Below, one piece after another: positions 110 through 64,000 of a stretch of 64,000 nt of DNA. The position numbers and the translations under genes are program-made. Source of the stretch: Candidatus Cloacimonadota bacterium. Lineage in GTDB: Bacteria > Cloacimonadota > Cloacimonadia > Cloacimonadales > Cloacimonadaceae. The stretch covers positions 1-64,000 of the forward strand of contig JAKOXG010000022.1 in assembly GCA_029781115.1 (NCBI GenBank), written 5' to 3'. The first letter of the stretch is position 1, and each line of letters begins with the position of its first letter. Under the pieces are notes generated by a model that was not told the DNA's origin, searched no databases, and saw only the letters and a list, made by a program, of their open reading frames with translations.

Positions 110-470
110 CTATGCATTTTTTGGTCAACAACTATTTTGATTTTTTAGCAAGCCGCCTCCCTCAAGCTGAGACTAACCAACTATGAAACAGCCCCTTACG
201 GCTTTACAACTCATCCCATAACTTCTTGTTTATCCGTGTTAATCCGTGTGTATCCGTGGAAAAATAAAGAGCTCCAAAACCATACGGATTGCCACCAAGA
301 GCATTCGCACCCCCGAAACCAGCGCAGCGACTAACACCTAAAACCTAACACCTTGCAAGCGCAGCGACTGACTACTGACAACTTGCGAGCGCAGCTTGCG
401 CCGACACCGTCGGCTCAATCCCAAAAACCCGCCCCGGACAATCAATTTCCCCTCACACTTCACTAATCTG
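110..470. other. intergenic region with short repeats, no gene
   Basis: No convincing gene is seen in this 360-base gap. It holds a three-unit ATCCGTG repeat at 232-259, a 20-base CTAACACCTAAAACCTAACA motif at 331-350 that recurs inverted at 25598-25617, and two copies of an AGCGCAGCGACT word (about 321-332 and 358-369). A long open frame on the minus strand runs from inside ppdK into this gap and is taken as a shadow. Confidence 0.6.
232..259 (+). repeat. ATCCGTG 10-bp phased repeat, single arm
   Basis: Three heptamers ATCCGTG start at 232, 242 and 252, so the period is exactly 10 bp, and the array ends in ATCCGTGG like the arms at 42.7-42.9 kb and 63.25 kb. Only one arm is present here; no inverted partner was found nearby. 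It is probably a remnant of the same element family. Confidence 0.8.
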
Positions 471-32416: not shown

Positions 32417-33009
32417 CTATTCCTCCCAATAGCTTGATAACCTTCAAAACCACTTCCACGTATTAAGATAATCCACAACCTCCAAATGTCAACTGCCAAT
32501 TGCCTGCAATCCTCCGGTAAGTGCCAATGCAACCAGTCAATATGCGCTTTCTTCCTTGACATATCCGTGTACATTCGTGAAAAACCAACTGCCAGCGAAG
32601 CTGTCTTCTCTCCCTCTCTCGGCCCCTCACTCTCTCACCCTCAGAAAGCTCCCTCTATAATATACCCTGACGACGCTACCTAAGTGATGATAACAAAGTT
32701 CACCAAAACGCCATATCTGCCCGATCAACAGCTCGATACGAGGTCAGGTCAAATATTGACACAAACAGCCAGTTTGGCAAATACCTTTGGATTGTGATGC
32801 TGTCTTTGCTTTCGGTGAGGAAGTGCGAGAAAGTCAGTGACAGACAGCCTTGACAGAATCAGATAACTGGTACAAATACGAGACCACTACCCTCACCCCT
32901 TCGGCTTAGCACTCTTAAGCTTCATTCTAAATGACACCATTCCAGAGCCTAGACTAAAAACAGCTCTATGGAGTGTTTTAGCACTGTTGCTATAACACAC
33001 GTCACGCCC
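32417..33009. other. intergenic gap with a degenerate ATCCGTG pair
   Basis: About 590 bases between the fnl genes and the AbiEii pair. It holds ATCCGTG at 32563 and ATTCGTG at 32573, exactly 10 bp apart. A 36-codon plus-strand frame at 32687-32797 looks somewhat protein-like but is not recognised. Nothing else is seen. Confidence 0.5.
32563..32579 (+). repeat. degenerate ATCCGTG 10-bp phased repeat
   Basis: ATCCGTG at 32563-32569 and ATTCGTG at 32573-32579, separated by the same 10-bp step as in the large elements. Only two units remain. Confidence 0.6.
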
Positions 33010-42624: not shown

Positions 42625-42948
42625 TTACTTGCCTTCTTGTTTTTACCACAGATGCGCACGGATATTCTTTTCATTTATCCACGGATACACACGGATGGAC
42701 ACGGATGAGCGTTTTAATGGGGAGTGTGCACACAAGCTTTATCACGATACACTATCACATTTCATGCCACTATCGGACTCTTCTATCATATCCACAAATT
42801 GCATCACTACTCATTTACCGAACCTTATTATCTATCAATTCGTGTGTATCCGTGGACTATTATTTATCCCATCCGTGAACATCCGTGTGTATCCGTGGAC
42901 TATCTTTTTCACCCATTAGTGTTCATTCGTGCGCATTCGTGGAAAGAA
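42625..42948. repeat. ATCCGTG 10-bp phased inverted-repeat element
   Basis: The whole gap between the ATPase stop and the DUF4276 start is filled by this element. The left arm CCACGGATACACACGGATG (42679-42697, running on to about 42709) is the inverse of the right arm 42870-42898 with two differences in 29 bases. Extra half-units ATTCGTG/ATCCGTG lie at 42839-42856 and 42915-42944, next to the ATPase stop. Within every arm the heptamer recurs at 10-bp steps. No gene is seen inside. Confidence 0.9.
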
Positions 42949-61746: not shown

Positions 61747-62943
61747 TTACCTCACTGAACTGGGTATATTCACCAGCCTGTCAGCTATTTCCTGAGATAC
61801 AGGTAAATCTGCAGCGATACAATCTTTATACATCTGCAGCTCGTTCATCAAGATCCAGGCGGGGCGGCTCATTACTCTATTTTCATTTGTTTCTTTCAGG
61901 AATGCTTCACGTGCTGATACATCTTTCAGCAGGATGGCATTGAGCCAAAAGTTGGAAACACAGCCTTGGGGTTCATCGATAAACTCAATCTCTGTATAGT
62001 CTGAGAAAAAGCTTTGATAAGCCTTGGCAGTTTCCCGCTTGTTCTTGAGTATTTCGGGCAACTTCTCCATCTGCGCACACCCCAAAGCCGCATTGATATT
62101 TGGCAGACGGTAGTTGTAGCCTATCCTGTCGTGCTCAAATCTCCAAGGGTGTGGCTTTTTGGCGGTGGTAGTGATGTGCTTTGCCAGGGGGCCCAGCTCA
62201 TCGTTATCTGTAACGACCATGCCGCCTCCACCCGTAGTGATGGTCTTATTGCCATTGAAGCTAAAGATGCCCAACTTACCGAAGGTGCCGGTATGCTGAT
62301 CTTTATAGTAACTGCCAATGGATTCCGCAGAATCTTCCACCACGGGGATGTGATAGCGATCGCAGATTGCCACAATCTTATCTATCTGGCAGGGATGGCC
62401 AAAGGTGTGCATGGGAACGCAAGCACTAATTCTCTTTAATCCAGGCTGGTTCGCTGCTCCCACGTCCGGAACCGCCGCGCCTTGCTGGGGTTGATAGTAG
62501 CAGTCCCCTGCCACAACAACGGTATTTGCCTTGAGCCAGCTTTCCAAGGAGTCTGGTGACATGCCCAGCGTGTCTCTACCAATATCCACAAACACAGGCT
62601 CTGCTCCACAATAGATTATCGCATTGCAGGTGGCGATGAAGGTAAGAGCCTGAGTAATGACTAAATCACCCTGTCCCACACCGGCAAGCTTGAGGGCTAT
62701 ATGCAGGGCTGCGGTGCCATTGACGGTAGCGATGGCATATTTGGCACCGGTATATTCTCTGATCATCTCTTCAAAGCGATCCACATATTTCCCCACGGAA
62801 GAGACAAAAGTGCTGTCTATACAATCCTGGGTATACTTGCTTTCATTACCGGAAAAATGTGGCTCATGAAGAGCGATAAAGTCCCTACCGGGGTATAAAC
62901 CACGGATGAAGGCTATGATTTGTTGTATTTGTTCTTTATCCAC
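61747..62943 (-). CDS. legC: LegC-type sugar-nucleotide aminotransferase
   Basis: A 398-residue PLP enzyme of the DegT/DnrJ/EryC1 family. LHEPHFSGNESKYTQDCID and TFVSSVGKYVDRFEEMIREY are typical of LegC-like proteins. SFNGNKTITTGGGGMV holds the PLP-binding Lys, and EDSAESIGSYYKDQ the cofactor-contacting Asp and Glu. It would add the 4-amino group to the LegB product. The GTG at 62943 with GAAGGA just upstream is chosen. A reading starting at 63000 would translate the adjacent repeat element into its first 19 residues and is rejected. Confidence 0.9.
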   Translation of the reverse strand: MDKEQIQQIIAFIRGLYPGRDFIALHEPHFSGNESKYTQDCIDSTFVSSVGKYVDRFEEMIREYTGAKYAIATVNGTAALHIALKLAGVGQGDLVITQALTFIATCNAIIYCGAEPVFVDIGRDTLGMSPDSLESWLKANTVVVAGDCYYQPQQGAAVPDVGAANQPGLKRISACVPMHTFGHPCQIDKIVAICDRYHIPVVEDSAESIGSYYKDQHTGTFGKLGIFSFNGNKTITTGGGGMVVTDNDELGPLAKHITTTAKKPHPWRFEHDRIGYNYRLPNINAALGCAQMEKLPEILKNKRETAKAYQSFFSDYTEIEFIDEPQGCVSNFWLNAILLKDVSAREAFLKETNENRVMSRPAWILMNELQMYKDCIAADLPVSQEIADRLVNIPSSVR

Positions 62944-63306
62944 TAATTCCTTCTTTGTTTTCCACGGATGCACACGGATGAACACGGATAAGGGTATCAT
63001 GGGGGAGGTCGAAATATGCTATCTGTCTGTTACACTTTATGATACGCACTGCTCTGAGCCTCCTTATATCTCCCACGAATTTCACGAATTAACACGAATT
63101 GAGGTGTATGTAAGATGACAGTATGCTATCACTCTTGTTAATTCTCATTTGTAATCACCATCTACACGCCAATAATCTCCATACTACCTACTTCTGTCAA
63201 GCCCACACACCTTACCAATAATTCGTGAAATTCGTGGGCTTTCTTACTCATCCGTGCTAATCCGTGTGCATCCGTGGACTTTATTATTACGCATTCGTGG
63301 AAAGAG
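62944..63306. repeat. nested ATCCGTG/ATTCGTG phased inverted-repeat element
   Basis: The full gap between legB and legC is one element with two nested palindromes. The outer arms are 62962-62991 (CCACGGATGCACACGGATG...) and 63249-63277. The inner arms CCCACGAATTTCACGAATT at 63072-63090 and AATTCGTGAAATTCGTGGG at 63220-63238 are exact inverses. Units step by 10 bp in the outer arms and 9-10 bp in the inner ones. A last ATTCGTGG lies 4 bases from the legB stop. No gene is seen inside. Confidence 0.9.
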
Positions 63307-64000
63307 CTAAACGTTGTATATGCCGGCTTTGTATTTCCTCAGATTTTCCGGTTTTGTAAACCACTGCACTGTCTTTTCCAGACCCTCTCGGATGCTATAG
63401 CGTGGCTCGAAGTCGGTCAAAGCCCTTATCTTGCTGTTATCGCACCATAGCCTGAATACCTCTGACTTTTCAGGGCGTATTCTCTGTTCATCTCTGATAA
63501 ACTCTACATCGCTGTGCATGATGTCTTTGATCAGCTCTAAGGTGTCTTGAACGGAGATCTCATAATTGGAACCAACATTTACCGTTTCACCTATGGCTGC
63601 TTCGCATTTAGCCAACTCAATAAATCCCCTGCAGGTATCCTCCACGTAGTTAAAATCACGGGTGGGCGTAGTATCACCCAGCTTTATCTGCTTCATCCCG
63701 GCAGCAATTTGGGTAATAATGGTGGGAATCACAGCCCGGGCTGATTGACGTGGCCCATAAGTATTGAAAGGACGCACTATAGTGAGAGGGAGCTTCAGGG
63801 CATTGTAAAAACTCATAGCAATGACGTCAGCCCCTATCTTGCTGGCACTATAGGGAGACTGCGGCTGCAGAGGATGCTTTTCATCGATGGGAACATATTG
63901 CGCTGTGCCGTACACCTCACTGGTGGAAGTAACCAAAATCCTCTGCACCTTTGCGTCTCGAGCTGCCTGGCAAATATTAAGAGTTCCTTTTACATTGGTA
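63307..64000 (-). CDS. legB: LegB-type NAD-dependent 4,6-dehydratase, 5' end outside the window
   Basis: The last 231 or so codons of an SDR-family sugar-nucleotide 4,6-dehydratase; the frame stays open to the right edge. VTSTSEVYGTA, then SPYSASKIGAD with the catalytic Tyr-Lys, RPFNTYGPRQSARAVIPTII and PTRDFNYVEDT are closely LegB-like. It would make the 4-keto-6-deoxy sugar nucleotide used by LegC. The N-terminal Rossmann motif lies beyond the window. Confidence 0.9.
   Translation of the reverse strand, partial: TNVKGTLNICQAARDAKVQRILVTSTSEVYGTAQYVPIDEKHPLQPQSPYSASKIGADVIAMSFYNALKLPLTIVRPFNTYGPRQSARAVIPTIITQIAAGMKQIKLGDTTPTRDFNYVEDTCRGFIELAKCEAAIGETVNVGSNYEISVQDTLELIKDIMHSDVEFIRDEQRIRPEKSEVFRLWCDNSKIRALTDFEPRYSIREGLEKTVQWFTKPENLRKYKAGIYNV

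Follow-up and report, generated by a model that had tools for sequence, protein, structure and literature searches.

Arrays of short, phased heptamers are the arms that bracket genes of the GxxExxY nuclease family, and a composite of such arms fills the gap between legC and legB in a Candidatus Cloacimonadota bacterium. We favour, with moderate confidence, the view that this gap holds gene-less, MITE-like copies of an arm–GxxExxY–arm element, on which a word-reading nuclease would act. The original prediction, made from the letters of the window (the whole 64,000-nucleotide stretch that was analysed), saw a nested palindrome suited to cooperative protein binding or to a hairpin. That interpretation was partly supported; the partner missing from it was the GxxExxY gene.

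A composite palindrome in the legC/legB gap

Table 1. Word arrays, arms and flanking genes in the 64,000-nucleotide window.
Feature	Position	Strand	Remarks
Composite palindromic element, whole legC/legB intergenic gap	62944..63306	.	No protein gene inside; RNA fold z −11.5
Outer left arm, three CACGGAT words, 10-bp steps	62961..62992	-	ATCCGTG starts 62963, 62973, 62983
Core segment A	62993..63071	.	Diverged copies in both gaps beside the neighbouring GxxExxY gene
Inner left arm, three CACGAAT words at 9 + 10 bp	63072..63099	-	ATTCGTG starts 63074, 63083, 63093
Core segment B	63100..63218	.	Copies with 74-79% identity in both GxxExxY-flanking gaps
Inner right arm, two ATTCGTG words	63219..63238	+	Starts 63221, 63230; exact 20-bp inverted repeat (100%) with 63072-63091
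Outer right arm, three ATCCGTG words, 10-bp steps	63247..63278	+	Starts 63250, 63260, 63270; 91% complementary to left arm over 32 nt
Lone additional ATTCGTG word, between outer arm and legB stop	63293..63299	+	Start 63293
legC, LegC family aminotransferase (TIGR04181)	61747..62943	-	Context
legB, NAD-dependent 4,6-dehydratase LegB (TIGR04180)	63307..64000	-	Context; continues past window end
Second composite element, four CACGGAT and seven ATYCGTG words, opposed arms	42657..42941	.	
Lone ATCCGTG array, three words	232..258	+	
Lone mixed array, two words	32563..32579	+	

Both inverted repeats of the original prediction were recovered, the inner one extending to 20 nt rather than the 19 bp first given, and its separation of C-words in the outer arms from T-words in the inner arms also held, with a single additional T-word lying outside (Table 1). 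Read on the minus strand, the outer left arm is ATCCGTG-N3-ATCCGTG-N3-ATCCGTGG and runs into the legC ribosome-binding site. The limits of the gap presuppose that the legC start codon is the GTG at 62943, preceded by the AAGAAGGA ribosome-binding site; the automatic legC ORF runs through the outer arm and into the array as far as 63000. Since the left outer arm directly abuts AAGAAGGA, the arms lie in the 3′ UTR of legB and in the 5′ UTR of legC. Arrays of this type generate spurious ORFs and start codons (GTG within ATYCGTG), for example at 62943-63000 of the window. The ATYCGTG word occurred 39 times in the window compared with 11.6 ± 3.1 in shuffled sequences, and the transcript-sense strand of the gap was predicted to fold at −133.7 kcal/mol (z = −11.5 versus shuffles). 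No Rfam family matched within the 64-kb window.

Beyond the window, legB is followed by a GxxExxY gene (contig 64592-65017), which scored 147.5 bits against TIGR04256 (cut-off 35) and retains the GxxExxY, D, ExK and QxxxY residues. The gaps on either side of this gene are homologous to the one between legB and legC and contain the copies of core segment B, at contig ~64295-64579 and ~64965-65284. As the gene is 1.3 kb from the palindrome and no GxxExxY gene lies inside 62944-63306, the legC/legB copy is gene-less; its inverted arms of C-R-C-N-R-A-K heptamers in 9-10 bp steps place it in the class of word-array elements. The repeated gaps around legB and the GxxExxY gene were also considered as an integron-like cassette array. 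The core of an attC site is GTTRRRY, and this reading was set aside because the words differ from it.

Distribution and organization of word arrays

Searching other genomes, as the original prediction had proposed, showed that the arrays are not peculiar to this locus. ATYCGTG-N3-ATYCGTG occurred 105 times in the source genome, compared with 0 for the reversed pattern. Of 118 genomes from the phylum, 77 contained at least one spaced pair, with the reversed control nearly nil, and three-word arrays were present in at least 113 stretches of species genomes from more than 10 other phyla. The matches listed include Planctomycetota, Desulfobacterota, Spirochaetota, Chloroflexota, Calditrichota, Bacteroidota, Acidobacteriota, Pseudomonadota, Gemmatimonadota, Sumerlaeota and Lentisphaerota (phyla as named in the records). 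When plasmids were searched with consensus hairpins, the matches were mostly due to chance, with one of 32 bp in Gloeothece; literature matches to CACGGAT, ATTCGTG and CCACGGAT were incidental primers or oligonucleotides only.

The original prediction had staked the element model on regular spacing in related genomes and on arms behaving as inverted pairs. In related genomes the words were indeed not randomly spaced. Spacing was quantised: among 177 distances of up to 60 bp between consecutive same-strand words in the fetched array-bearing stretches of the source genome, 149 were 9 or 10 bp, and none was 1-8 or 11-17 bp. Arrays also paired as inverted arms, with 32 of 33 neighbouring opposed arrays running CACGRAT then ATYCGTG ('-+' 32 versus '+-' 1). 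A single word was used throughout 209 of 227 arrays, and the terminal G (ATYCGTGG) was fixed. Arrays were mostly intergenic and faced stop codons more often than start codons in the source genome (47 versus 24) and elsewhere (56 versus 30); they were under-represented in the divergent gaps of the source genome.

The suggestion that two subfamilies had nested by insertion also fits, since elsewhere the palindrome of one word lies inside the tip of another's (L120, L181, L466). Nested palindromes reach three deep (L120 301-587, L181 6638-7024, L183 3027-3423 and L466). In the source genome, the heptamer tandem repeats CCTAACA/CCTAAAA and ACTGACT/ACTGACG stand beside ATYCGTG arrays in mosaic gaps (L022, L033, L015, L047 and others).

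The words also form compact gene-less hairpins of ~45-75 bp, which are repeated within single genomes between unrelated flanks (12 in one Caldilineaceae genome, for example). In 35 such hairpins the words matched between arms, whereas the inner spacers showed no co-variation within a genome, a pattern to be expected if what counts is the word and not the perfection of the stem. The proposal that helical phasing serves protein binding is thereby strengthened, if indirectly. An apparent spacer co-variation across genomes (60% versus 27%), considered as proof of an RNA hairpin, disappeared when shuffling was confined within genomes (outer p 0.09, inner p 0.96) and was dropped as evidence.

GxxExxY genes are bracketed by inverted word arms

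Because the nearest GxxExxY gene sits between homologous gaps, we tested the flanks of GxxExxY genes for inverted repeats without specifying any motif, judging the inverted-arm score against that of mismatched pairs of flanks (99th percentile) and comparing distributions by the Mann-Whitney test. Scores above this percentile were obtained at 41 of 69 GxxExxY loci in genomes of other phyla that bear arrays (p = 4e-27), at 6 of 26 Cloacimonadota loci (p = 1e-9) and, in a further, independent set drawn largely from the phylum to which Azospirillum belongs, at 12 of 39 loci (p = 4e-14). Two-sided word arrays flanked 35/69 of the cross-phylum and 14/26 of the Cloacimonadota genes, compared with 1 of 159 neighbouring ORFs and 0 of 30 Y1_Tnp/RAYT loci from the same genomes. 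The arm words take the form C-R-C-N-R-A-K at 9-10 bp steps (CACGAAT, CACGGAT, CACAGAT, CACAGAG, CGCAGAG, CGCAAAG, CACGAAG and others), an alphabet to which both words of the legC/legB palindrome belong. The gene for the GxxExxY protein WP_032839887.1 of Bacteroides finegoldii, for instance, has CACAGAG arms. An initial test restricted to ATYCGTG had been weak (4 of 30 loci), and the link emerged once any inverted arms were allowed.

At the level of whole genomes, GxxExxY was present in 33 of 40 array-bearing genomes versus 24 of 150 genomes sampled from a phylum without regard to arrays, a comparison that is a guide only, because the two sets come from different phyla. Within Cloacimonadota the association between GxxExxY and arrays was moderate (odds ratio 3.4, p = 0.004), and an unrelated four-helix-bundle family gave one as strong (odds ratio 5.8, p = 5e-4). 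A strict partnership with the latter was rejected: its arms use other words, and an ATYCGTG array lay within 400 bp at 1 of 30 of its loci. The main weakness of the GxxExxY model is a group of four array-rich congeners (G014, G056, G045 and G071), which hold 7 to 100 spaced ATYCGTG pairs and no detected GxxExxY gene. Arrays thus persist without a resident enzyme, and those of the congeners may be relics or may belong to another enzyme.

The Y1_Tnp loci bear on whether the arrays are of the REP/RAYT type, that is, palindromes mobilised by a tyrosine transposase of the Y1 (HUH) type. The two share palindromic structure, intergenic position near stop codons and arrangement in inverse pairs (PMC3733652), and 32 of the 42 genomes with arrays gave Y1_Tnp matches, the source genome two weak ones. 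Yet the remaining 10 of the 42 had no such match. Of the 30 Y1_Tnp loci, 15 had inverted repeats of their own while none had these words, and a Y1 transposase was accordingly rejected as the partner. Moreover, the 35 compact elements start with CCACG and end with CGTGG, and inspection by eye, flanks included, found no GTAG or CGTC tag. We therefore regard a REP/RAYT origin as very improbable. A Spirochaetia genome of 2.5 Mb (G124, the genome of L115) carries 46 Y1_Tnp (IS200/RAYT-type) matches.

GxxExxY is predicted to be a small Cas4/RecB-like nuclease

In 55 aligned GxxExxY domains, E47, D87, E97-x-K99 and Q111...Y115 were invariant or nearly so, which is the layout of RecB/Cas4-type PD-(D/E)XK nucleases. 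An AlphaFold2 model (pLDDT 88) matched SSO0001 (4ic1), a Cas4, as the best solved fold, followed by lambda exonuclease and AddAB. On this modelling, GxxExxY (TIGR04256 / PDDEXK_3, PF13366) is predicted to be a small Cas4/RecB-like PD-(D/E)XK nuclease of ~125 residues. To our knowledge, no RecB/Cas4-like nuclease is a transposase. In the literature covered, outside which lie most subscription journals and preprints, we found the name GxxExxY in passing, with no description of its function and none of word arrays flanking GxxExxY or PF13366 genes; the association with word arrays is new here.

Word sequence follows nuclease sequence

To compare words with enzymes, we placed 64 GxxExxY domains, taken from 45 genomes, on a tree, whose resolution is poor (111 columns, 35 open forks). 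The last word base, T or G, changed only 5 times on this tree, compared with a shuffled mean of 19.5, and none of 600 shuffles was as low; with shuffling confined within genomes the difference remained (p = 0.003), and all 93 rows gave 8 changes versus 28.7 shuffled. A motif-free Mantel test likewise related arms to GxxExxY proteins (r = 0.31, 0 of 1000 permutations). The rule that a locus shares the last base of its nearest relative was then applied to newly fetched loci and held for 22 of 24 (chance 0.535, p = 7e-5). At one Bacteroidaceae site it held for just 2 of six copies, because CAGAT words there accompany G-side proteins; even so, same-word copies were closer to each other (77-80% for the two T-word pairs) than were most different-word copies (53-69%).

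Genomes with several copies carry different words beside proteins of the matching clades. One of them (G121), with six copies, has CACGAAT, CACGAAG, CACAGAG and CGCGGAG, and the nearest GxxExxY protein of the source genome falls in the CACGAAT clade. The best separator in the protein was residue 114 (numbered as in L039:2593-3018), within the Q-x-x-[N/T/S]-Y motif: N occurs mostly in T-word proteins, and T or S mostly in G-word proteins. As a sole specificity switch this residue was rejected: 86 of 95 rows agree if any non-N residue or unreadable motif is counted as G-word, and the nine exceptions, four of which are Bacteroidaceae copies, make it no more than a single determinant or a marker of clade.

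Since the sequence of the repeats tracks that of the nuclease, each GxxExxY enzyme probably recognises its own repeats. The match between arms and protein could also stem from common descent of the whole unit without binding. Inheritance of this kind is compatible with an RNA role, in which the arms may serve RNA processing: a hairpin in the leg operon transcript would either be cut by RNase III, which would separate legB and legC, or shield mRNA ends, with GxxExxY as a passenger. The fold energy, with an outer stem of 31 bp and an inner stem of 20 bp, would suit such a hairpin, as would the preference for stop codons and the scarcity in divergent gaps; intervening sequences (IVS), in which an ORF lies within a ~28-bp terminal inverted repeat cut by RNase III, are built alike (PMC4990558). 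We nevertheless consider an RNA role unlikely. It leaves both the tracking of GxxExxY by the words and the 9-10 bp quantisation unexplained, many arrays are single-sided and unable to fold, and inner spacers lack the within-genome co-variation from which RNA stems would profit.

The same data speak to the possibility that the arrays are host operators, bound on one helix face by a conserved nucleoid or regulatory protein, and that GxxExxY genes carry them for their own regulation. Quantised spacing, and conserved words between variable spacers, are what such sites would show. On the other hand, words that vary by locus within one genome, as in G121, are hard to reconcile with a single host protein, arms stand on both sides of the gene and even right after the stop codon, and gene-bearing units are gained or lost as blocks, so that we find an operator function improbable.

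Occupied and empty sites

Gain or loss of a whole unit was evident downstream of radA in Bacteroidaceae. In 13 fetched species this gap is 1-40 bp, whereas in others it holds an arm–GxxExxY–arm unit of ~475-520 bp with CACAGAG, CACAGAT or CGCAGAT words depending on the species (L445-L474). The unit is thus cleanly present or absent at one gap among sister species. One of these gaps (L466) has CGCAGAT arms next to a CACAGAG half-arm, an arrangement resembling nesting. The original prediction had looked to empty-site comparisons for target-site duplications; none was seen in the occupied/empty comparisons, where gaps are short and diverged and where the clean pair concerns this gene-bearing Bacteroidaceae relative rather than the legC/legB copy.

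The legB/legC gap itself is a hotspot for different element families. In two congeners (G071 and G045) the orthologous gap lacks an ATYCGTG array and holds a four-helix-bundle gene (TIGR02436) within inverted GTTGAG/CTCAAC arms (L241, ~1500-2265; L242, ~1490-2170), while in G056 an ATYCGTG element adjoins legB. Of the other array-bearing gaps of the source genome, those at L025, L033 and L023 are array-free in G056 and that at L043 is shared.

Such sites raise the question of whether another mobiliser (a reverse transcriptase, host recombination or template switching) moves the units, GxxExxY and the four-helix-bundle protein both being cargo that shares a route of insertion into hairpins. Four-helix-bundle genes do lie between inverted arms made up of short tandem words (14 of 29 loci exceeded the 99th percentile), two congeners carry one in this very gap, and the proteins show a weak relationship to Avd of retroelements (E = 1e-10, below the cut-off). 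However, arms that track GxxExxY do not track the four-helix-bundle protein (r = 0.06, n = 18, p = 0.29), and we judge a shared mobiliser to be rather unlikely. The arms of the four-helix-bundle (23S rRNA IVP-type) genes consist of tandem words of 7-8 bp, namely GAGAGGTC, GATTTAAC, GATTAACA and TTAGGTG (L078-L107, L021).

Discussion

In the explanation that we favour, gene-less copies of a nuclease-bearing element, the full element would consist of a GxxExxY nuclease gene between two inverted arms, each with two to several C-R-C-N-R-A-K heptamers 9-10 bp apart. Steps of this length put all words on one face of the DNA helix, where the nuclease would bind its own words in a B-form duplex, a cruciform or a hairpin. 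It would then act on its own unit and, in trans, on gene-less copies; units would spread into gaps, mostly just past stop codons, and would also insert into the tips of each other's hairpins. The legC/legB gap would accordingly represent two gene-less units, an ATTCGTG palindrome having inserted inside an ATCCGTG one.

In architecture the system resembles REPtrons as well as the intervening sequences of 23S rRNA, yet it falls under neither definition. Like REP/RAYT systems (PMC3733652, PMC2817692), it comprises small extragenic palindromes, many per genome and mostly downstream of genes, together with full units in which repeats flank a gene and repeat-specific partner genes within one genome. 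It differs in that the partner is a putative PD-(D/E)XK Cas4/RecB-like nuclease rather than an HUH tyrosine transposase, and in that its arms are phased heptamer arrays rather than a GTAG- or CGTC-tagged stem; the 35 compact elements have no such end tag, and no Y1 gene is flanked by the words (0/30). Intervening sequences of 23S rRNA (S23p/IVP) are ~430 nt long, with a ~28-bp terminal inverted repeat around a small ORF, and are inserted in hairpins (PMC4990558). Members of the S23p family also lie in inverted arms here, including the orthologous legB/legC gap of two congeners. The present element, in contrast, is intergenic, lying between legC and legB rather than in a 23S rRNA helix, its arms are word arrays, and the partner with matching arms is GxxExxY. 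It is like prokaryotic MITEs in that its gene-less units are short, have inverted repeats, are scattered over gaps and have relatives that carry a gene; the legC/legB element has terminal inverted repeats, and its ends are common to GxxExxY units, which are putative mobile units. No target-site duplication was seen in the short, diverged gaps compared, and the element differs from MITEs in having no known transposase partner.

The mechanism has a fair chance of being new. We know of no case in which an enzyme of the GxxExxY class drives such movement alone. More tentatively, and with less confidence than in the gene-less copies themselves, we propose a new minimal mobile unit, in which a Cas4-like nuclease of ~125 residues would read phased words flanking its own gene and, driven by its nuclease activity in place of a transposase, spread both its own unit and gene-less copies, enzyme and word co-diverging across phyla. 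GxxExxY is a very widespread small family, and its link to word arrays supplies a likely substrate, making its function directly testable. The link also accounts for common, unnamed intergenic repeats (ATCCGTG, ATTCGTG, CTCTGTG and CTTTGCG arrays) that give rise to short spurious ORFs in many genomes. Should the units move, they would be among the smallest self-encoding bacterial elements known.
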